From Oscillospiraceae bacterium (GTDB lineage Bacteria > Bacillota > Clostridia > Oscillospirales > Ruminococcaceae), in contig JAGBCL010000108.1 of NCBI GenBank assembly GCA_018110825.1, forward strand, positions 1 through 64,000: 64,000 bases of DNA. The letters run 5' to 3'. The notes below the pieces were generated by a model. That model saw only the letters and a program-made list of their open reading frames with translations, did no database searches and was not told the origin of the DNA. Below, one piece after another: positions 4,666 to 42,554 of this stretch (the first letter of the stretch is position 1; each line of letters begins with the position of its first letter). The position numbers and the translations under genes were made by a program.

Positions 4666-5073
4666 TTATTCCTCCAATATATTTTTAGGGCTGACAAGCT
4701 TTAAATTGCTAAATTGACATATACATACATTATATACCTTTTTTGCCACAATTGCAAGGGATTTGAGGAATAAAGTTGTTTTATCAGTAAAATATTTCAT
4801 AATCGAAAGATGTTGTAATTGAACTTTTTTTCTCTCCTTATTTTTTTCTAAAAGTTTAATCAGCATTTCAACAGCAGGTTTTAAGTCCTTATTTACTGTT
4901 CCTGCACCCAATACTGTAACAAATTGCTTTGAACAATCAACTGTCAGACAATCCCAGAACGCATCCCAGTTTGCCCCATAATAATCAGGAAAATCAAGAG
5001 CTTTTTTTATTCTTTCATGGAACTCACGATAATACTTGCAGCCTGTTAAATCAAGAATAGCTTTTTCTTTCAT
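4666..5073 (-). CDS. barstar-like RNase inhibitor family protein with long C-terminal tail
   Basis: Barstar-family proteins are small inhibitors of barnase-type RNases. Residues 1-80 carry the family pattern: DLTGCKYYREFHERIKKAL, then YYGANWDAFWDCL, the most conserved segment. A normal barstar ends after about 90 residues. This one (135 residues from the ATG at 5073) carries about 50 further residues encoded by AT-rich DNA and without family similarity, which suggests a frameshift or loss of the original stop. No barnase-like toxin gene is next to it. The ribosome site is weak, the start lies just after the terminator of the preceding operon, and the end abuts paaK by 2 bases, so expression is uncertain. 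Confidence 0.65.
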   Translation of the reverse strand: MKEKAILDLTGCKYYREFHERIKKALDFPDYYGANWDAFWDCLTVDCSKQFVTVLGAGTVNKDLKPAVEMLIKLLEKNKERKKVQLQHLSIMKYFTDKTTLFLKSLAIVAKKVYNVCICQFSNLKLVSPKNILEE

Positions 5074-5086
5074 ATTTGTATCTACT

Positions 5087-5121
5087 AAAAAAGGCGTTCC
5101 GAAAAATACGGAACGCCTTTT
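5087..5121 (-). terminator. terminator of the PilZ-ParA-ComFB operon
   Basis: 13-bp perfect stem (AAAAGGCGTTCCG) with a 7-base loop, directly after the stop of the ComFB-like gene and followed by a T-run on the minus strand. Confidence 0.85.
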
Positions 5122-5123
5122 CA

Positions 5124-5783
5124 TCAATCATGTTTAGGAAGCGGTTTTCTCTCCAGCGCAAGACGTACCAGCGTCATCATAACGTCCTTACGGTGCTGGT
5201 CCTTCATCTTTTCAACCATCTTCATATCTTCCTTGCCGTTGATTTTCACCTTTATCGTCGGCACACGGTTACCCGCCTCTGTAACGGCGTCAGCGTAGCA
5301 AATCGGACACTGACAGCAGTTGAAACGCTGTAAAACCTGCGGCATAAGCTCTGTAATAAGCTCACCTGTGACGTCTATCTCAACAACGCTTGGCTGTACA
5401 ACAACCTGCGGTTCAGGCTGTACAACCACCTGTGGCTTAGGCTCGGGCTGTACAACGGCCTGTGGCTGTGGCTCTGGCTGTGCAACTACCTGCGGCTGTG
5501 GCTCGGGCTGTGCAACTACCTGCGGCTGTGGCTCGGGCTGTGCAACTACCTGCGGCTGTGGCTCTGGCTGTACAACAACTTGCGGCTGTGGCTCTGGCTG
5601 TACAACTACCTGCGGCTGTGGTTCAGGCTGAACAACAGCAGGCTGTTCAACAACCTTTGGCTCTATATTTTTCGGCGCTGTTTCCTCATCCTTGAGGTTG
5701 CTGCCCAGACTTGGATTTGTAGCGACCTTTTTCCCAGTCAGCAGGCGCATAACAGCTTCCGTTTTATTGCTTTTATGCTCCAT
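5124..5783 (-). CDS. ComFB-like protein with proline-rich decapeptide repeats
   Basis: 219 residues in three parts. Residues 1-50 are a charged head. Residues 53 to about 130 are about eight tandem PEPQPQVV(V/A)Q repeats, probably an extended rod. The C-terminal ~85 residues resemble the late-competence ComFB family: LITELMPQVLQRFNCCQCPICYADAV, split here as the helix LITELMPQVL and the cysteine cluster NCCQCPICYADAV, which in ComFB binds zinc. ComFB proteins have recently been reported as cyclic dinucleotide receptors, so a signalling role is plausible. It is the last gene of the operon after the PilZ and ParA genes (21-base gap) and has a good AAAGGA site. Its exact function is unknown. Confidence 0.75.
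   Translation of the reverse strand: MEHKSNKTEAVMRLLTGKKVATNPSLGSNLKDEETAPKNIEPKVVEQPAVVQPEPQPQVVVQPEPQPQVVVQPEPQPQVVAQPEPQPQVVAQPEPQPQVVAQPEPQPQAVVQPEPKPQVVVQPEPQVVVQPSVVEIDVTGELITELMPQVLQRFNCCQCPICYADAVTEAGNRVPTIKVKINGKEDMKMVEKMKDQHRKDVMMTLVRLALERKPLPKHD
5394..5627 (-). repeat. 30-bp tandem repeat encoding PEPQPQVVxQ units
   Basis: About seven full and one partial 30-base units inside the ComFB-like gene, encoding a ten-residue Pro/Glu/Gln/Val repeat. Copies are near-identical at DNA level, so copy number is likely to vary between strains by slippage without changing the frame. Confidence 0.9.
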
Positions 5784-5804
5784 TTTTCAGGATTCCTTTC
5801 TGAT

Positions 5805-6581
5805 TTATCTTTTCTTTTTTGCGGATATGATTTCGGGATAAAGATACTCTGCAAGCTTGGTGTAATTCCTTGATGCACGGCTGTTAGGAGAATACTTTGT
5901 GAGCACCTGCTGATGCGCAGGAGCTTCCGCCGCCGCAATGGAAACCGCAATCTTTATATCAAGAACCTGCGTCTGAAGCTGATCTGCAACAATCTGAACC
6001 ATTTCCTCTACTTCGTGTGAAAGAGCATATCTTGGCACGAATTTGGTAAGAAGAATACCTCTGATATTCAGATTTTTATTATAATATTTCTTAACCGCAA
6101 GAATTGTTTCCCTGAGCTGAGCAATACCCTGAAGTGAAAGGATTTCAGGTGTCATCGGGATAATCAGGTCGTTTGCGGCAGTATATGCATTGATTGTGAG
6201 AATCGAAAGCGCCGGAGGTGTGTCGATAATTATATAGTCATAATCATCTTTTACCGTTTCAAGTGCTCTCTTGAGAATGAATTCTCTCCTGTCAGAATCA
6301 AGCTCCAGCTCACTTCCCGAAAGGAGAATATTTGATGTAATGACATCGCAGATATGAGTCGTTTTTATTGCCTCACGTATACTGCATTTTCCTGTCATAA
6401 CATCATGGATTGTATATCCCTCGTCCTCTGCTCCGAGAGAAAAGGACAGGTTACCCTGAGGGTCCATATCAATAGCAAGAACTTTCTTGTCTCTGCTTCT
6501 GAAAATACCCGTCAGCGCTGCGCAGGTAGTGGTTTTACCAACGCCGCCTTTCTGATTTGTAACAACAATTACAGTAGCCAT
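5805..6581 (-). CDS. ParA/MinD-family ATPase
   Basis: Deviant Walker-A ATPase of 258 residues. The N-terminus has NQKGGVGKTTT (signature lysine at residue 11, P-loop lysine at 16), Walker A' is LAIDMDPQGN, and the Walker B segment is DYIIIDTPPALS. This class positions chromosomes, plasmids, flagella, pili or chemoreceptor arrays by ATP-dependent dimerisation. There is no ParB gene in the window. It sits between a PilZ gene (19-base gap) and a ComFB-like gene (21-base gap), a context that favours positioning of a surface or signalling structure rather than DNA segregation (inference). Confidence 0.9.
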   Translation of the reverse strand: MATVIVVTNQKGGVGKTTTCAALTGIFRSRDKKVLAIDMDPQGNLSFSLGAEDEGYTIHDVMTGKCSIREAIKTTHICDVITSNILLSGSELELDSDRREFILKRALETVKDDYDYIIIDTPPALSILTINAYTAANDLIIPMTPEILSLQGIAQLRETILAVKKYYNKNLNIRGILLTKFVPRYALSHEVEEMVQIVADQLQTQVLDIKIAVSIAAAEAPAHQQVLTKYSPNSRASRNYTKLAEYLYPEIISAKKKR

Positions 6582-6600
6582 ATGCCCTCTGCTTCCTTAC

Positions 6601-7257
6601 TTAAAAAATACTTTCTTTTGCTTTTCTGCGTTCTCTTTCAAGAACCTGACAGTCGAAAATAAATCTTGCCAGGCGTTCCTCCTGAGACTGATTTACATCA
6701 AGAAATCTGCATCCGTAACCGTCAATTTCGCCTTCATCATTTTTCTGAACACGGAGAATTTCAGCCAGCAGCTGCATTTCACCATCAAGGAAATTCAGCA
6801 TCACCTGGTCACCAACTTCAAACTCAGATGTTGAATTGAAAAATACACCGCCAAGATTAATATTTACAAAATGAAGCAAAACAGGGTCATCAAAAGCATA
6901 CATCTCCTCGCCTCTGATATAGAATGGTGACATTCCGTTGAAATCAACGGACACCTTAAAGCTTCTGCGGCGTTCTGCAAGAACCTCGCCCTGACCTGCA
7001 TGGAAATTCACCTGATATTCGGTGCACAAGTCGATGGTTGTATCATATTTCACACGATTGCCGTTAATATATTCAAAAATAATTTCAACATTTTCTCCCT
7101 TGGAAATAAGCGGAAAATCAGAACCCTTAAGCATTACAAGTTCTTTACCCTTCAGCTTGAAAAAATCCTTTGGAAAAAATACAGACTTTGTAGAAATAAG
7201 CAACTTGCCGTTTGAATCGTAAACCAGCACCCTGCTGATTTTATCCTTATTTACCAC
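6601..7257 (-). CDS. PilZ-domain protein (putative c-di-GMP receptor), first gene of PilZ-ParA-ComFB operon
   Basis: 218 residues with the two-domain layout of YcgR-like proteins: an N-terminal beta-rich flagellar-brake-like part (about 1-90), then a PilZ domain. The PilZ nucleotide-binding arginine cluster appears as AERRRSFKVSV near residue 97, and the second motif as NINLGG in place of the usual (D/N)xSxxG, so c-di-GMP binding is probable but not certain. The start is GTG at 7257, fixed by AAGGAGGT 6 bases upstream; no ATG is available there. It is the first gene of the operon, behind a sigma-A promoter at 7298-7326. Confidence 0.78.
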   Translation of the reverse strand: MVNKDKISRVLVYDSNGKLLISTKSVFFPKDFFKLKGKELVMLKGSDFPLISKGENVEIIFEYINGNRVKYDTTIDLCTEYQVNFHAGQGEVLAERRRSFKVSVDFNGMSPFYIRGEEMYAFDDPVLLHFVNINLGGVFFNSTSEFEVGDQVMLNFLDGEMQLLAEILRVQKNDEGEIDGYGCRFLDVNQSQEERLARFIFDCQVLERERRKAKESIF

Positions 7258-7326: not shown

Positions 7327-7459
7327 TAGTAATTTTTTATCTTATGAAATATATTAAAACGCAGCTGCTTTTTTTGTATAAAATATAATAAAAAGCGACT
7401 GTACAAACTGCTCGAAAAATGCTATAATTATTATAAATAAACATTTGGAGCTTAACATT

Positions 7460-8062
7460 ATGAATAAACAATATATTTATCTTGTACTTACCCGTACAGG
7501 TACAATATTTTCCAGAGTAATCGGTCTTGCAACAGGTAAACAGTACACCCATGCGTCCATCGCTTCCAATGAGATGCTTACAGATATGTACAGCTTCTGC
7601 CGTGACCATAAGGAACGTCCGCTGCCTGCCAATTTCAACCACGAAGATATCTTCACTGAGGTTTTCGGTGCCTGTAAGACTATCCCAAGCGAGGTTTACC
7701 GTATTCCGGTTACTGATGAACAGATTGAACGTTATCACACCCTGATAAGACATTTTGTGCTTAACCGCGAAAAATATTCTTACGACCTCGGAGCACTTCT
7801 TCCGATGGCACTTCATATCCCTTACAAAATGCGAAACAACAAATTCGTATGTTCAGTATGGGTCGGTTTTATGCTTGGTAAATCGGGAATTGTGAACGAC
7901 ATGAAAAAACACCCGTCACTTGTTGAACCTGAGGATTTCCGCAGCGTAAAGGGTGCTGAACTGATATATAAAGGTGATTTGAAAAAGTACCGTGACTACA
8001 TAAAGGAAGTACGTGAAAAGAAAAACGGAAAGATTCCTGTCCTGCAGACGGAAACTGCCTGA
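7460..8062 (+). CDS. permuted papain-like (YiiX/NlpC-P60 type) hydrolase, putative
   Basis: 200 residues. It has the order of catalytic motifs expected for permuted papain-fold enzymes: an early TGKQYTHASIA with a candidate histidine, and a late NKFVCSVWVGFML with a candidate nucleophilic cysteine. Members cleave amide or ester bonds in lipids or peptidoglycan. No signal peptide is present, so it is cytosolic or depends on its neighbour for membrane access. The ATG at 7460 has GGAG 9 bases upstream; a TTG further up (7445) lacks a site. A promoter (TGTACA-N17-TATAAT, 7400-7428) precedes it. The next gene follows after 17 bases, so they form an operon. Confidence 0.65.
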   Translation: MNKQYIYLVLTRTGTIFSRVIGLATGKQYTHASIASNEMLTDMYSFCRDHKERPLPANFNHEDIFTEVFGACKTIPSEVYRIPVTDEQIERYHTLIRHFVLNREKYSYDLGALLPMALHIPYKMRNNKFVCSVWVGFMLGKSGIVNDMKKHPSLVEPEDFRSVKGAELIYKGDLKKYRDYIKEVREKKNGKIPVLQTETA

Positions 8063-8079
8063 TAACGGAGGTGCGGCAA

Positions 8080-8811
8080 TTGCATAAAATGATAAGGATC
8101 AACGAAAAACGTCTTGCCGCAAAATATAACAGACGTATTTTTCTGGCTGCATTGCCCGCTTTAAGTATACTTATTTCACTGCTTATCGTTGTGCTGATTT
8201 TTGTTATCAAACTCGGTACGGCTCTTCCGCAGCAAATGTACAGAACAATCATTTACCTTGCTTATGCGGCAATTGCATACGGTTTTATTGTATGCCTGAT
8301 AGGTTCTGTACTTGAAGATATTCTTATCCGTGCTCACCGTGAACACACCTACATACACATTGCAGATTCGGTAATGGTTGTTTCGCAGCACTGCCGCACG
8401 GTATTCCGTGACTGGAAATGGGTTCATTACAAAAAAATGTGGGTTATAAAACTCTCTGAGGTTGAAAATGCGGAATGCATACGAAACCATATTACCTTAA
8501 CTGCCCCTGCCCGTTATTTCAACGAAGATTCAAGCTGGCTTGGATATACAAAGGCCGATGAAGGAATCAACTTCGACCGCTGGTGGTATGACACAAACGG
8601 CGGAAAAAACGTTGACAGTCTCGAAATTACAGATTTTTATACGCACGGCGAACGAATTGTAAGACATATTCTTCACTGTGCCAATAAGGTTCGTGCACGT
8701 GAACAACGTCGTGCACAGTTCCGACGTGAAATGCTGGAAATTGCCAGAAATGTCAATTACCCTCACAAGCTTAAAGACCGTTACCAACCGAAAACAAAAA
8801 GAAAAAGATAA
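8080..8811 (+). CDS. membrane protein of unknown function, partner of papain-like hydrolase
   Basis: 243 residues. Two adjacent hydrophobic helices lie near residues 20-45 and 60-85, followed by a soluble, tryptophan- and histidine-rich domain and a very basic C-terminus (many RR/RK pairs, ending KRKR), probably cytoplasmic. I do not recognise the family. Start choice: GGAGGT at 8067-8072 is 7 bases before a TTG at 8080, while the ATG at 8089 is 16 bases away, so TTG is preferred. It forms an operon with the hydrolase gene. Confidence 0.65.
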   Translation: MHKMIRINEKRLAAKYNRRIFLAALPALSILISLLIVVLIFVIKLGTALPQQMYRTIIYLAYAAIAYGFIVCLIGSVLEDILIRAHREHTYIHIADSVMVVSQHCRTVFRDWKWVHYKKMWVIKLSEVENAECIRNHITLTAPARYFNEDSSWLGYTKADEGINFDRWWYDTNGGKNVDSLEITDFYTHGERIVRHILHCANKVRAREQRRAQFRREMLEIARNVNYPHKLKDRYQPKTKRKR

Positions 8812-16966: not shown

Positions 16967-19900
16967 TTATACTACATGTCTGTGAATCTCCGAAAGATTT
17001 TCACCAACGCTTACAATTTCAAGTGCTTCTCCGTCAGGTGTTGTTGCGTTGATTTTTCCTCTTCCGTCATAAATGATATCTATTTCCGAAACAACTGCCT
17101 TACCGCCATTTGTTCCAATACCGAGTTCAGCAGATGCAGCAGTGTGGAGCTTCATTCCGGCATTAATAATTTCAATGTTTCCTGAGCCCATTCTGTCACC
17201 GATACCGGTTACGTCATTGCCTTCGCAGCTGAGAACATACTCACCGCTGATGATTTCAACGTCCACCTTACCTCCGACGCCTCCGATTACTGATGCGTTC
17301 TTAGCATTTGCAGAAAGCTCATATTTTCCATCACGGAGGGAAACTGAACCACTGCCGCCGTCAAGTGTTCCTATTGCACAGCATCTGTCGCCTGCGCAGG
17401 CAATCGTAATATCAGTTGCACACTCAACAGATACCTTTCCGTTCATTGAACCGATACCAATAACATTTCTTCCTGCACCGTCTATCGAAACATTTCCGCC
17501 CTTGACACTGACATTTGATGCGCCTGAAACTGAACCCATTGCAACAATATTTACTCCTCGAAGCTCTGAAGTTACAGTTCCTGAAACAACCTCAACAACC
17601 GAATTTTCTCCGCCTATGCTACCGCCGATTGCAACGATATTCGTAGTTTCAACATAAATATCGAGTTTTCCTGAATGTTCAAGATGGATTTCTCCGTAAT
17701 CCTGGAAGTAATTGCCTCCAAGAACAATACCATCATCACTGCTTACATCAAGCTTCAGAGTTCCGTCGCCCTTCAATGTGAATTTACTGCTTTCCGGAAC
17801 TCTTATGCCCTCATAGCTGAATATATTGTTTCCGCTGATTTCAAGGACAACGTCACAATTTTTACCCAATGTAAGAACAGGACCCTCAAGACCGAAAATA
17901 TTCACATCAGTCATACTGATTTTTCCGATGTATTCATCTTCACAAGCAATTCTCATATTTACCGAACGTGTAAGATTACCCTTAAAGGCTACCTCATTGC
18001 TGCAAATAATTATATCGGTATAACCCTGAACTGCAAGTGATTCAACGTCTATAGTTTCACTATTTTCAATTCTGTAGACTTTTTTCTTATATCCTACATT
18101 ATTAAGGTTGATATCAAGAATTTCGTTCCTGATATCAGCAGCAATATCCGGAAGAACAATAGGATTCGGTCTGCCTGTATAGTAGCCCTGGATATAATCA
18201 ATTCCAAGGGTAATTACCGTTTCAAGCTCGCCCTTTGTTTCTACGCCTTCGCTAAGGGTTTTTATACCATGAATTTTTGCAAAATTAATCATATTTGCAA
18301 CAAGGTGTCGCTTCTGCGGGTCTTTTTCGATTTCAGAAATCAGTGAACGGTCAATCTTAATAAAGTCAGGCTGAATGGAAAGAAGCGTCGATTCGTTTGC
18401 ATATCCTGTACCGTAATCGTCCAGCGCAAAAAGAGCATGCTTACTGCTGTATCTGTTTCTCATTGTATTGATGCTTTCAGGAGTAATCTGACTTCCCTCT
18501 GTTATTTCAATAATTATTCTGTCGAATACACTGCCGAATTCATTGTACAAAGCTCCATACTCATCATCTGTGATAAAGCAGTTCGGTATTGTATTTATAA
18601 ACAGTCGTTTGCCCTTAAAAAGTTCCTGATTTGCTGAAAGGAATTTCAGAGTATTGTACATTGTAAGATGTTCAATCTTATCTGTCATATTCTGTTCCTT
18701 AGCAATCTTTATTGTCTCTGTCGGGTTAAGTCTTATGCCGTTGATTTCCTGTGGACGCATAAGAGCTTCATAACCGAATATTTCGCCTGTATTTGCATCA
18801 ACAACAGGCTGGAAATGATAATCAATCTTATTTTCAGATATTACTGCATTGAACACCTGAATCTTTTCAAAGTCATGCGCACGGATAACATAATTTGCCT
18901 GGTCAAATTTTACCGGAACAGCTGCACCTGAAGATTTAGCTTCGAAAGCTGCATAATCCGCAGCAGAAATCATTGTTCCCGCATCTGATTCACGGTCATT
19001 GAAAAGTGCGTATCCGCAGTAAATATGGATATACTCATTATTATCCATCATCGCAAACGCTTCTGTAAGGCTCTTGTAAAGCTTATTTGCGTATTTTTTA
19101 CAGCCTTCGTCATATGTATCTGTCAGAAGCAGGCACATTTCATTTGTTGAAGTTCTTCCCGCAAAGGCATTGTGCGGATTTTCAAATCTCTTCAGAACTG
19201 ATGTTACCTTTCCGATAACCTTATCTGCCGCAGCGGTACCCTTGAATGAAGAAACCTTGTCAAGACCGCTGATAAGAATACTTATAAGACCGATTTCGCC
19301 CCTGTTTGTTTCCGTCACAGAACGCACCTTTGCAATAAATGCATCACGGCAGAGCATACCTGTATCGCTGTCGTAATATTTCAGACTCTTTATGATGTTA
19401 CGGCAGGAAACATACTCTGAAACATCAGAAATCAATGTGAATTCATAATATTCATTCTCAAACGTCGATACACGCACCCAGCTTTCCGGACGTGCTGACA
19501 TATAGATATCAGAACCTGCATCAGACGGACTTGAAACAAGTTCAGTCATGATTCTCTTGTAATCAACATCATCAATGATTTCGCTTGCAACATCAATGCC
19601 TGTAATAGCTGAAAACTTTGCAGAAACATATGCTGTCTCATCATTCTTATTGTATTTCACCTCAGCATATCCGGATATTCTGTCAACAATCTCCTCTATG
19701 CTTCTGAACTTATTATCAAAAACTATGAAAACATTTCTTATCATCATAACCATTCCTGCAGCAAACAGTACAGCAAGAGTTATTACAACACTTTCAAAAG
19801 TTTCAAGGAAAGCGGCTGCCACTGCTACCAGAAAGAGTAAAGCTACACCTGAATACAACAATATTTTTAATGTTTTTATGCGTTTATTCTCATCTTTCAT
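16967..19900 (-). CDS. membrane GGDEF(degenerate)-EAL phosphodiesterase with C-terminal beta-helix-like array
   Basis: 977 residues, predicted to hydrolyse c-di-GMP. Two transmembrane helices lie at about residues 10-55, then a PAS-like region, then a GGDEF domain (about 160-320) whose active motif has become RTSTNEM, so it cannot make c-di-GMP. The EAL domain (about 345-590) keeps GYEALMRP, ITEGSQI, LDDYGTGYA, FIKID, SEGVET and YIQGYYTGRP, i.e. the metal and catalytic residues. The last ~370 residues are an unusual run of short Gly/Val/Ile beta-strand repeats (VAIGGSIGGENS, IGIGSMNGKVSV, CAIGTLDGGSG, IGGVGGKVDV) resembling a right-handed beta-helix. With no further membrane segment it should be cytoplasmic. 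Confidence 0.88.
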   Translation of the reverse strand: MKDENKRIKTLKILLYSGVALLFLVAVAAAFLETFESVVITLAVLFAAGMVMMIRNVFIVFDNKFRSIEEIVDRISGYAEVKYNKNDETAYVSAKFSAITGIDVASEIIDDVDYKRIMTELVSSPSDAGSDIYMSARPESWVRVSTFENEYYEFTLISDVSEYVSCRNIIKSLKYYDSDTGMLCRDAFIAKVRSVTETNRGEIGLISILISGLDKVSSFKGTAAADKVIGKVTSVLKRFENPHNAFAGRTSTNEMCLLLTDTYDEGCKKYANKLYKSLTEAFAMMDNNEYIHIYCGYALFNDRESDAGTMISAADYAAFEAKSSGAAVPVKFDQANYVIRAHDFEKIQVFNAVISENKIDYHFQPVVDANTGEIFGYEALMRPQEINGIRLNPTETIKIAKEQNMTDKIEHLTMYNTLKFLSANQELFKGKRLFINTIPNCFITDDEYGALYNEFGSVFDRIIIEITEGSQITPESINTMRNRYSSKHALFALDDYGTGYANESTLLSIQPDFIKIDRSLISEIEKDPQKRHLVANMINFAKIHGIKTLSEGVETKGELETVITLGIDYIQGYYTGRPNPIVLPDIAADIRNEILDINLNNVGYKKKVYRIENSETIDVESLAVQGYTDIIICSNEVAFKGNLTRSVNMRIACEDEYIGKISMTDVNIFGLEGPVLTLGKNCDVVLEISGNNIFSYEGIRVPESSKFTLKGDGTLKLDVSSDDGIVLGGNYFQDYGEIHLEHSGKLDIYVETTNIVAIGGSIGGENSVVEVVSGTVTSELRGVNIVAMGSVSGASNVSVKGGNVSIDGAGRNVIGIGSMNGKVSVECATDITIACAGDRCCAIGTLDGGSGSVSLRDGKYELSANAKNASVIGGVGGKVDVEIISGEYVLSCEGNDVTGIGDRMGSGNIEIINAGMKLHTAASAELGIGTNGGKAVVSEIDIIYDGRGKINATTPDGEALEIVSVGENLSEIHRHVV

Positions 19901-37773: not shown

Positions 37774-40116
37774 TTATCTGAGAATGGATTTCTTGTTTTT
37801 CTTCTGGTCGTAAAGCACGTTGTCAGCCTGAGCAAGAATTTTTGAAAGTTCAACATCGTGACCGCACTTGAAAGCGTACATACCGACACTCATATGGACG
37901 ATATACGGTTTATCATGAGTCCTGTTGAAAGCATCCGTTGCCGCTGCAACTCTGGCTTTAACAATGTCGATAACCTCTTCGCTTGTTGCGTTTTCAACCA
38001 TTGCAAGAACTGAGAATTCGTCGCCGCCGATTCGTCCGATTATATCGGAGCTTCGGAATGAATCGTGGAGAATTTTTGCGGCATTTCTGATAGCAAAGTC
38101 GCCGTCCTCATGGCTGAATTGGTCATTGATGATTTTCAGGCTGTCAAGGTCAGCAAAGACGATAAGTGCGTCCCTGCCCTCGTTCATAGGGGAGCATATT
38201 ACGCTGTTTGCCTGAGTAAAGAAGCCTCGTCTGTTGTAAACGCCAGTAAGCTCATCGATTTTGGAAATTGTGTCAAGAAGAAGATTTCTTTCCTTAATCT
38301 GGAGCAATGTCTGTTCAAGTTCCTGACGGATATTTTCCTTATCCTGGATAAGACGGAGAATCTTCATTGCCGCACAAAGCTGTGCTGAAAGTGAACTTAT
38401 ATAGTAGAAGTAATCATATTCAAGTTCACAGAGGAACAGTCCATAGTGGTCAACATTAAGGAAAATCGATGACAGAATCATCGTAACGCGTCTGTCCTTA
38501 GGCATATACTTATGGTCAAACAGGTGACGGATTGAAATTTCCTGCTCTTCCAAAGGAACAGTTTCAGCGATATCCTTATTATGGTATGACTTCAGAAGAA
38601 CCTTTGACGGTGGGAGCCATTTTTCATTCTTTCGGTTAGAAAGTGTTTCAGGGAAAATATATATGTAGCTGCTTGCCATATTGAGCCGCATAAGCTTATC
38701 GGTTACAGAACCGTATCCCATATCGTCGTAGCTGTCAAAAAGAAGCATATCCTTTGTAATGGAGTTGGACTGCCATGTAAGGAATTCCACTTCTTCAACA
38801 CGCTTGTTATTGAAGTTTACAACCGCACGCATCATAATCTGGTACAGGCTGATAAAAACAGAAGCAAGACGTTTCTTGTCATCGGGATTGTCAAGTCCTG
38901 CCGCAAAGCGCTGATTAAGATAGTCAATAACGCTGCACAGCTTGTCATGTGATGTGCTGTTCATCATTTCCGCTGTAAGCAGATTTTCAAACATTTCAGG
39001 AATAGACTCGACTGCCTTGTCAGTAAGTGTGATTCCGCCATGGTCATCGGAATTCAGAACCGCAAAAACATCTCTGAGGAATTGCTCAAAATCAGCTTTA
39101 ACATCAGAAATCTGATTTGATGTTCTGTAAATATCAAACAGATATTTGCTTACTGCAATAACCGTCTGTGAGTCTGAACGGCACCAGCAATAGTTGAATA
39201 CAAAAACATCTTTATATGAGAAGTCTGCTGAAATATCAGCTTTACAGCCGCAGGATTTACGCTTGACCATTGATGTACATACTTTTCTGCTGTTAAGCTT
39301 TCCGGTTTTACCGTATTCAAAGCATTCCATAACTGCGTCATATCCCAGTTCGGAAGCATCAGCCTTTACCGTGGTAAGGGGCGGAACAAGATTTGCTGCA
39401 ATCGGTGAATCATCGAAGCCTGTTACATAAATATCCTTGCCGATTTCAATGCCTCTTTCCTCAAATACCTCATAAGCACCGCTTGCCATTGCGTCATTAG
39501 CAAATGCAATAGCCTCAAGGTCAGGACAGCGGTCAAGCAGTTCGCTTACAACACTGTATGAATAGGGAGAAAATCTTCCGTAGGCAACCCTATCCTCATT
39601 ATACTGGATACCTGAATTTTTGAGTGCATCAATATATACGCCCAGTCTTTCATTGGCATCTTCATTTGTTTTAGGACCGCTTACAAAGCCTATTTTGCGG
39701 CAGTTATGGTCATTGATGAGGTGTTCTATACATTCCTTTATGCCGCTTTTGTTGTCAAAGCAGACCGAAGCATAGCCCTCAACCTCGGAAGCAATGGTAA
39801 TGACGGGTATACCGTTAAACTGTGCGAGAAAGTCTTTTTTACGTTCGCTTGAAAGGGAATTTCCGATTGTGCCGACAAGAACAAGCAGAATATCGATATC
39901 CTCGGGGAATGCATAGGAAAACAAAGTATTATACTGATATTCATATTCTGTACGCTTTTTATCTGCGTAAACGCCGTCTATATATCTTCCCGGAAAAATA
40001 AATAAATTCGCATCTATTTCCTTAGCGCCGATAATTGCGCCCCGGCACACTGCACTGGCAAAATCATCTTCAAGGTGGCTTATCATAAGGCCTATATTCA
40101 TGCGTTTTTCCATTTT
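37774..40116 (-). CDS. diguanylate cyclase with N-terminal LacI-type ligand-binding domain
   Basis: 780 residues, no signal peptide or membrane helix, so cytoplasmic. Residues about 5-280 match the ligand-binding domain of LacI/PurR regulators without a DNA-binding head (NIGLMISHLEDDFASAVCRG, GFVSGPKTNEDANERL, YVTGFDDSPIAANLVPPLTT). A helical linker of about 300 residues follows, then a GGDEF domain with FADLDSLKIINDQFSHEDGD and GRIGGDEFSVLA. The allosteric I-site RSSD sits exactly five residues before GGDEF, so product inhibition is expected. It should make c-di-GMP in response to a small ligand, probably a sugar (inference). AAGGAG precedes the ATG at 40116. Confidence 0.88.
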   Translation of the reverse strand, partial: KMEKRMNIGLMISHLEDDFASAVCRGAIIGAKEIDANLFIFPGRYIDGVYADKKRTEYEYQYNTLFSYAFPEDIDILLVLVGTIGNSLSSERKKDFLAQFNGIPVITIASEVEGYASVCFDNKSGIKECIEHLINDHNCRKIGFVSGPKTNEDANERLGVYIDALKNSGIQYNEDRVAYGRFSPYSYSVVSELLDRCPDLEAIAFANDAMASGAYEVFEERGIEIGKDIYVTGFDDSPIAANLVPPLTTVKADASELGYDAVMECFEYGKTGKLNSRKVCTSMVKRKSCGCKADISADFSYKDVFVFNYCWCRSDSQTVIAVSKYLFDIYRTSNQISDVKADFEQFLRDVFAVLNSDDHGGITLTDKAVESIPEMFENLLTAEMMNSTSHDKLCSVIDYLNQRFAAGLDNPDDKKRLASVFISLYQIMMRAVVNFNNKRVEEVEFLTWQSNSITKDMLLFDSYDDMGYGSVTDKLMRLNMASSYIYIFPETLSNRKNEKWLPPSKVLLKSYHNKDIAETVPLEEQEISIRHLFDHKYMPKDRRVTMILSSIFLNVDHYGLFLCELEYDYFYYISSLSAQLCAAMKILRLIQDKENIRQELEQTLLQIKERNLLLDTISKIDELTGVYNRRGFFTQANSVICSPMNEGRDALIVFADLDSLKIINDQFSHEDGDFAIRNAAKILHDSFRSSDIIGRIGGDEFSVLAMVENATSEEVIDIVKARVAAATDAFNRTHDKPYIVHMSVGMYAFKCGHDVELSKILAQADNVLYDQKKNKKSILR

Positions 40117-42299: not shown

Positions 42300-42554
42300 T
42301 ATTTCAAAGACGTAGCAGTCAGAGTAGCTTACTATGAAGCTTACAGAGAGTATCGGGTCGGTGCGACGATACAGCGGATGGTTTGTGAAGTGCGGCTGTC
42401 AGTCCGGACGGGGAACATTTTGAGTATCCGTCTGCGTGAGCTCACGTTACAGGGCACAGAGGGAGCGTCAAAAATATTGCTCCGAATTGAAGTGGAACCG
42501 TGGTAAATGTATGTTGCCGCCTTCATAGTATATTCTATGGAGGCGGTTTTTGTT
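42300..42554 (+). promoter_or_regulatory. T-box leader, cysteine-specific
   Basis: Uncharged-tRNA-sensing leader upstream of cysE. The specifier-loop side has GAAG followed by TGC (42391-42393), a Cys codon. The T-box core is AGTGGAACCGTGG (42491-42503), a variant of AGGGTGGAACCGCG. A terminator hairpin GCCGCCTTCATAG / CTATGGAGGCGG (42516-42546) with a following T-run completes it. It would let transcription proceed when tRNA-Cys is uncharged. The 337 bases between the preceding gene and cysE hold only this leader and its promoter. Confidence 0.88.

Follow-up and report, generated by a model that had tools for sequence, protein, structure and literature searches.

In this study, an operon encoding a PilZ-domain protein, a ParA-type ATPase and a ComFB-like protein was analyzed in a 64,000-nt stretch of DNA (the window) from an Oscillospiraceae bacterium (GenBank assembly GCA_018110825.1, contig JAGBCL010000108.1, positions 1 to 64,000; this genome is designated G000 here). 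On the basis of gene order and co-occurrence, the operon very likely serves the flagellar or chemotaxis machine. The best explanation of its sequence features, to which we give about an even chance, is a flagellum-dedicated ParA-ComFB system that stands in for FlhF-FlhG and receives input from cyclic diguanosine monophosphate (c-di-GMP). The operon may represent an undescribed way of deciding the place or number of flagella.

Coordinates and Pfam matches confirmed the three genes reported in the initial annotation, with spacings of 19 bases between PilZ and ParA and 21 bases between ParA and ComFB; they form one unit (Table 1). A terminator-like hairpin lies 3′ of ComFB, and therefore the transcription unit probably consists of PilZ, ParA and ComFB and ends at this hairpin, the barstar-like gene beyond it being separate. 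None of 200 shuffles gave an equally good hairpin. A separate pattern scan missed it, the probable cause being a stem extended by A/T pairs; the numbers of promoter- and terminator-like sites in that scan were inside the shuffle spread.

The trio, which had been proposed from this one sequence, is conserved far beyond the strain. When ParA was used as the query against named genomes, ComFB was found downstream of ParA in 51 of the best 80 of 432 relatives, within 300 bases in 50 and at 1.7 kb in one (L207). PilZ was located upstream in 37 of these 51 loci, directly before ParA in 32 and one gene further away in 5. In the window's family, the ComFB query matched 48 of the 197 genomes, some solely through the low-complexity rod of the protein. 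Thirty family loci were fetched and two (L022 and L030) were dropped as such rod matches; in the 28 kept, ParA adjoined ComFB in 27 and PilZ was present within the 1.5-kb flank in 16. Adjacency of ParA was viewed directly in these 28 loci, in the 80 named loci and in 18 loci of the class Clostridia, 3 of which had it.

Gene order links the operon to flagella. Within the stretch examined, ComFB runs into flgB-flgC-fliE-fliF-fliG-fliH-fliI-fliJ-fliK-flgD in 10 of 20 family regions; the names are from L047, in which Pfam identified nine of the ten genes and the first (133 residues, no Pfam match) was taken as flgB by place and size. Two loci (L201 and L202) displayed the order fliQ-fliR-flhB-flhA-sigD-flgG-flgG-fapA-PilZ-ParA-ComFB-cheC-cheD, with FapA labeled by Pfam and the others by similarity to the genes of G000. 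At least two flagellar labels were found in the flank of 16 of 51 ParA-ComFB loci versus 1 of 28 ParA loci without ComFB, leaving out L200, the ComFB side of which is cut by the contig end.

Co-occurrence gave the same association. The ComFB domain was detected in 62 of the 197 family genomes, 60 of which had an open frame of at least 125 residues, the length regarded as long in the family (at least 200 residues in the class draw described below); frames were measured from stop to stop, and the length of some may have other causes. FliG was present in 59 of these 60 genomes (p = 2e-38, a statistic that, like the other one below, counts genomes as independent although they are not), the sole genome without it being 73% complete (G047). 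The count of FliG-bearing family genomes used here is 69 of 71, with G097 and G171 dropped as partial FliG matches (E about 5e-4). A draw of 391 genomes from the class contained ComFB in 112, FliG in 148 and FlhF in 134; FliG was found in 110 of the 112 ComFB genomes, and the other two have FlhF. The ComFBs of Clostridia, mostly standalone frames of about 90–130 residues, thus track flagella, an indication that they have a flagellar role there and not one in competence. Deletion of ComFB in Bacillus subtilis leaves DNA uptake unaffected (PMC4381287).

The initial annotation had named a flagellum, a pilus or a signalling cluster as the object to be placed, and the evidence from gene order and FliG favors the flagellum over the other two. 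A chemotaxis array is an unlikely cargo; in that case the operon would resemble ParC/ParP or PpfA/TlpT, and its ParA, partnered by ComFB, would distribute or tether clusters of CheA and CheW (PpfA-TlpT is a ParA system with a special partner for a protein cargo). This fits the position of cheC-cheD, directly after ComFB in three loci (L198, L201 and L202) and close to the ParA-ComFB pair in G355 and G438, and ParA/MinD ATPases are known for chemotaxis clusters (PMC10241942). However, the neighbor is flgB in half of the family regions above, cheC-cheD are part of the same large flagellar cluster so that nearness cannot separate the two readings, and the component found missing is FlhF (ParC was not searched for). 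Still less probable, indeed very improbable, as cargo is a type IV pilus or Tad system. One is seemingly encoded by G000, in which six matches to T2SSE-type ATPases (PilB/PilT/TadA family) exceeded the cut-off, and cyanobacterial ComFB acts on pili (PMC12313861). Against it, the operon of many relatives has flagellar genes as neighbors, and no pilus genes were among the Pfam-scanned neighbors, although no search was aimed at them. A pil operon had been read from the sizes of the neighboring clusters and was dropped once Pfam gave flgC-fliE-fliF-fliG and the following genes.

The system that the ParA-ComFB pair would replace was not found. In none of the 197 family genomes, G000 included, did FlhF (TIGR03499) reach the cut-off; the weaker matches present in all 197 were read as GTPases of the signal recognition particle type, and no FlhF match was obtained in G000 at E 1e-32. 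In all 10 junctions inspected where the export genes end (L069, L071, L074, L076, L199-L202, L244 and L245), flhA directly abuts sigD without flhF-flhG. NCBIfam named both genes in L069, L071, L076 and L201 and sigD in L074; the flhA of L074 was assigned by size and order and the remaining names by similarity. The same place is occupied by flhA-flhF-flhG-PilZ in 3 of 3 FlhF-bearing controls, in which FlhG carries the DQAxxLR motif. G000 also has two ParA-like, one MinD-like and one Mrp-like protein, all under the NCBIfam cut-offs; FlhG was not recognized among the ParA/MinD-type proteins that were identified, which make up part of the AAA_31 matches, and an FlhG elsewhere in G000 is unlikely.

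The arrangement recurs outside the family. Three flagellates without FlhF (G314, G355 and G438) carry ParA and a long three-part ComFB beside fliD, and in the family of G438 (f31) FlhF was found in all 12 other FliG-bearing genomes drawn. In the class draw, a long ComFB was detected in 4 of 16 FlhF-less flagellates versus none of 134 FlhF-bearing genomes (p = 9e-5, at the 200-residue cut and with G277 set aside). The frame of G277, the sole one above 200 residues in an FlhF-bearing genome, was rejected, being masked sequence that continues into a different gene. A narrower proposal, in which the ParA-ComFB pair takes over from FlhF-FlhG in determining the number or site of flagella, appears evenly balanced.

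The ATPase itself differs from FlhG. It has a deviant Walker A motif (KGGVGKTT) near the N-terminus, and the DQAxxLR motif described for FlhG (PMC12826062), present in the three controls, is absent; therefore, the window ParA is not FlhG-like near its N-terminus. In a quick tree of 61 ATPases, with support from the Shimodaira-Hasegawa-like approximate likelihood ratio test only, the 22 ParAs without ComFB formed one clade at 100 and the 3 FlhGs another at 100, beside 36 ComFB-linked ParAs. The labels need the fewest possible changes on this tree, which does not give the direction of change. The rows were 32 of 51 linked ParAs, 21 of 29 others, the window protein, the ParB-paired ParA of G000 and six proteins from other genomes.

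No ParB was found beside the window ParA, which is adjoined by the PilZ and ComFB genes, and the ParA-ParB pair of G000 sits on another contig (C1; ParB_N, 122.9 bits), upholding the earlier statement that the ATPase has no ParB neighbor. An ordinary ParABS partition locus, suggested by the ParA type of the ATPase, is consequently scarcely credible and was dropped on account of this separate pair (no parS search was made) and of the tree, in which the ParAs without ComFB fall in another clade; ComFB downstream in 51 of the best 80 relatives also argues against it.

The ComFB-like protein consists of three parts, a basic N-terminal segment, a linker and a ComFB domain (Table 1). The motif [NSH]KT..[VIM][ML].L[LI] was found in the N-terminal segment of 42 of 55 ParA-linked ComFB proteins and a related motif, DK..MF.KIMP, in 10; in 53 the N-terminal window of up to 30 residues had a net positive charge, the value being a charge count and not a prediction of disorder. 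Seven standalone ComFBs of other Clostridia begin right at the domain without an N-terminal extension, and their N-terminal charge was net negative in 5, zero in one and +1 in one. ParA/MinD partner proteins have a basic disordered N-terminus and a separate cargo-binding body (PMC10241942). From this layout and the adjacency of the genes, the ComFB-like protein is probably the partner of ParA, a claim in which we have fair confidence.

The linker varies widely in length and composition, with whole linked proteins of 132 to 414 residues. The decapeptide-repeat rod noted in the initial annotation was borne out as a 30-base tandem array; near relatives, with proteins of 132–140 residues (for example L161-L164 and L166-L168), showed no such array. 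A search of plasmid DNA gave 6 records, every one matching the repeat stretch.

Membership in the ComFB family is settled because 22 of 41 aligned homologues matched PF10719 at E 0.01 (best E, 1.1e-20) and the family profile found B. subtilis ComFB (4wai) at E 2.7e-8. The zinc site of the latter consists of three close Cys and a distant Cys or His ligand (PMC4381287), and the window and linked proteins have the same pattern. An alignment of 41 of 52 linked ComFBs had the three Cys in all 41 rows and the distant His in 40, with Cys in the remaining one. Recounting on all 55 proteins, including L189 and L190 that the alignment had left out, gave CxCxxC in 53. The two ParA-linked ComFBs that have lost the Cys cluster are L189 and L190 (L017 and L018 belong to their lineages); therefore, the zinc site is dispensable there and not universal. 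G000 contains a second, short ComFB frame of 113 residues (contig C14:56898-57146, 63.3 bits), off the operons studied.

Table 1. Features of the PilZ-ParA-ComFB operon in the window
Feature	Position	Strand	Details
PilZ-domain protein, YcgR-like	6601-7257	minus	GTG start; 218 aa; PF07238, 48.8 bits (cut-off 22.5)
ParA ATPase	5805-6581	minus	258 aa; AAA_31, 184.3 bits (cut-off 27)
ComFB-like protein	5124-5783	minus	219 aa; ComFB, 18.1 bits (under the cut-off of 25)
Conserved basic N-terminal segment SNKTEAVMRLLTGKKVATNP, candidate ParA-activating peptide	5676-5783	minus	Motif counts
Linker array, 30-base unit QPEPQPQVV[VA]	5416-5636	minus	7.4 copies, 90% matches; Tandem Repeats Finder
ComFB domain, zinc-type ligands C157, C159, C162 and H218	5127-5384	minus	Ligand pattern
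Intrinsic-terminator-like hairpin after the ComFB stop codon	5088-5122	minus	With U-run; -22.1 kcal/mol, z -5.9

The c-di-GMP link proposed for the operon was strengthened by a gene found between PilZ and ParA. In the 6 loci with such a gene (L193-L197 and L081), it encodes a GGDEF protein in all 6, each with PAS and HAMP matches and an intact GGDEF motif. The window's genome gave 22 GGDEF matches; two of the domains are inside the window itself (18926-19378 and 37789-38262, minus strand). The window PilZ protein is homologous over 163 columns to the PilZNR+PilZ proteins encoded after flhG in three Clostridia (hhalign probability 97.7), but none of the 34 operon PilZ proteins in the alignment (of 38 in all) matched PF12945, and a Protein Data Bank search with the PilZ profile gave nothing at E 0.01. 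The canonical c-di-GMP-binding PilZ motif is RxxxR plus [DN]xSxxG, and the three control YcgRs have RxxxR and DxSxGG. The window protein has ERRRSFK (RxxxK) and NINLGG. The only other PilZ match in G000 (contig C101:29714-30019) has the same variant (RRRSFK, NINLGG); therefore, either the variant binds or the genome is without a motif-true PilZ.

The initial annotation had described two c-di-GMP receptors flanking one ParA. Synechocystis ComFB binds c-di-GMP and cyclic diadenosine monophosphate (c-di-AMP) (PMC12313861), and Anabaena CdgR is a c-di-GMP receptor (PMC13075795). The window protein has a degenerate form of the ALNxLPPxY-like stretch that B. subtilis ComFB shares with cyanobacterial CdgR, and a pattern search found the stretch in 6 of 41 linked ComFBs, not including the window one. 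The c-di-GMP receptor 8hja was matched weakly (E 0.034) and lacks the Cys cluster in that alignment. Given the altered PilZ motif and the degenerate ComFB stretch, the two-receptor layout is no more than a candidate, whereas the other parts of the earlier interpretation (conservation, a separate ParB, the flagellum and the c-di-GMP link) found support. The ComFB-like protein is better read as a ParA partner than as a second receptor. Gating of the ParA-ComFB system by c-di-GMP or another cyclic dinucleotide has about an even chance.

A reading without positioning is also to be weighed, in which the operon would be a c-di-GMP-responsive switch on flagellar expression or assembly, with ParA as a nucleotide-dependent regulator and ComFB as the receptor. 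Cyanobacterial ComFB and CdgR bind c-di-AMP or c-di-GMP and affect pilus proteins or the size of the cell (PMC12313861 and PMC13075795), E. coli MinD acts on flagellar transcription (PMC12826062), and a GGDEF gene is in the operon of some relatives. The basic N-terminal extension, which was found in the ParA-linked ComFBs but in none of the seven standalone ones, suits a ParA partner better, and we consider such a switch rather improbable.

For the preferred reading, placement of flagella by a ParA-ComFB pair, the following cycle can be proposed. The nucleoid would be covered by ATP-bound ParA dimers. The ComFB-like protein would dock on ParA through its basic N-terminal peptide and so trigger ATP hydrolysis, as in other ParA/MinD partners, and its ComFB domain, which in B. 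subtilis is a zinc dimer, would hold the cargo on a linker. The most likely cargo would be the basal body of the flagellum or its export/switch complex. PilZ, and perhaps the ComFB domain too, would feed the cyclic-dinucleotide level into the cycle and so affect flagellar number or place. A more specific version is put forward tentatively, as a possibility of somewhat lower probability: a clade of flagellated Clostridia may have swapped FlhF-FlhG for a nucleoid-based ParA with a ComFB-type second-messenger receptor as partner, and c-di-GMP, the cyclase for which is in the same operon in some species, may directly gate flagellar place or number.

Several observations weigh against flagellar placement by this system. 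Among the 16 flagellates without FlhF in the class draw, 12 lacked a long ParA-linked ComFB; of these 12, G351, G435, G442 and G538 are less than 85% complete and the other eight are not, and FlhF loss therefore does not require the system. A long ComFB was also lacking in 10 of the 69 FliG-bearing family genomes (8 with none and 2 with a short one), and the operon and FliG are on different contigs in the three genomes that belong to the genus of the window. PilZ was not found before ParA within the flank examined in 14 of 51 loci, several of them at contig starts, nor beside the ParA-ComFB pair in G314, G355 and G438; therefore, PilZ is not a fixed part. The canonical PilZ motif is altered, with RxxxK in 38 of 38 operon proteins and Asn for Ser in 35, Ser being kept in L198, L201 and L202. 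Neither N-terminal pattern was found in 3 of 55 linked ComFBs; L195 and L197 are without the motif, and L199 escapes the pattern though SNKT is present.

Other features were observed around the operon. Just past its terminator, a barstar-family protein is encoded at 4666-5127 (minus strand; PF01337, 66.7 bits). Two genes divergent from the operon, at 7445-8062 and 8071-8811 (plus strand), gave no significant Pfam match, and relatives of their products adjoin the operon in related genomes as well (cluster c13 in 5 of 21 sets and cluster c2 in 16 of 21). A T-box leader was detected at 42304-42527 (plus strand, 103.1 bits).

In the abstracts and passages searched, few of them from subscription papers, no description was found of a ParA-ComFB pair or of ComFB as a flagellar protein. 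Compared with FlhF-FlhG, the operon is similar in that the gene for a ParA/MinD-type ATPase is located within or next to the flagellar cluster and has a PilZ gene beside it, as a YcgR-like PilZ follows flhG in three FlhF-bearing Clostridia. It is different in that its ParA lacks DQAxxLR and falls outside the FlhG branch, a ComFB-like protein is added, and family FlhF is under the cut-off throughout the 197 genomes. The YcgR flagellar brake resembles the operon PilZ in length, PilZ domain and homology over the 163 columns, but the operon protein has no PF12945 match (34 of 34) and has RxxxK and mostly NxNxGG instead of RxxxR and DxSxGG. With the ComFB/CdgR receptors, the operon ComFB shares the domain and, in 53 of 55 linked proteins, the CxCxxC of the B. 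subtilis protein; it differs in its long N-terminal extension, its ParA neighbor and the scarcity of the ALNxLPPxY-like stretch. McdA-McdB, ParC-ParP and PpfA-TlpT likewise have a ParA without adjacent ParB and a partner with a basic N-terminus and separate body (PMC10241942), but the partner candidate of the operon is a ComFB-domain protein. ParA/MinD positioning with special partners is thus already known; here, the partner family would be new and a second-messenger input would be possible. For a large group of Clostridia, the operon offers a concrete candidate flagellar system, and this reading proposes a job for ComFB. If true, a second messenger would be joined directly to the ParA positioning cycle.

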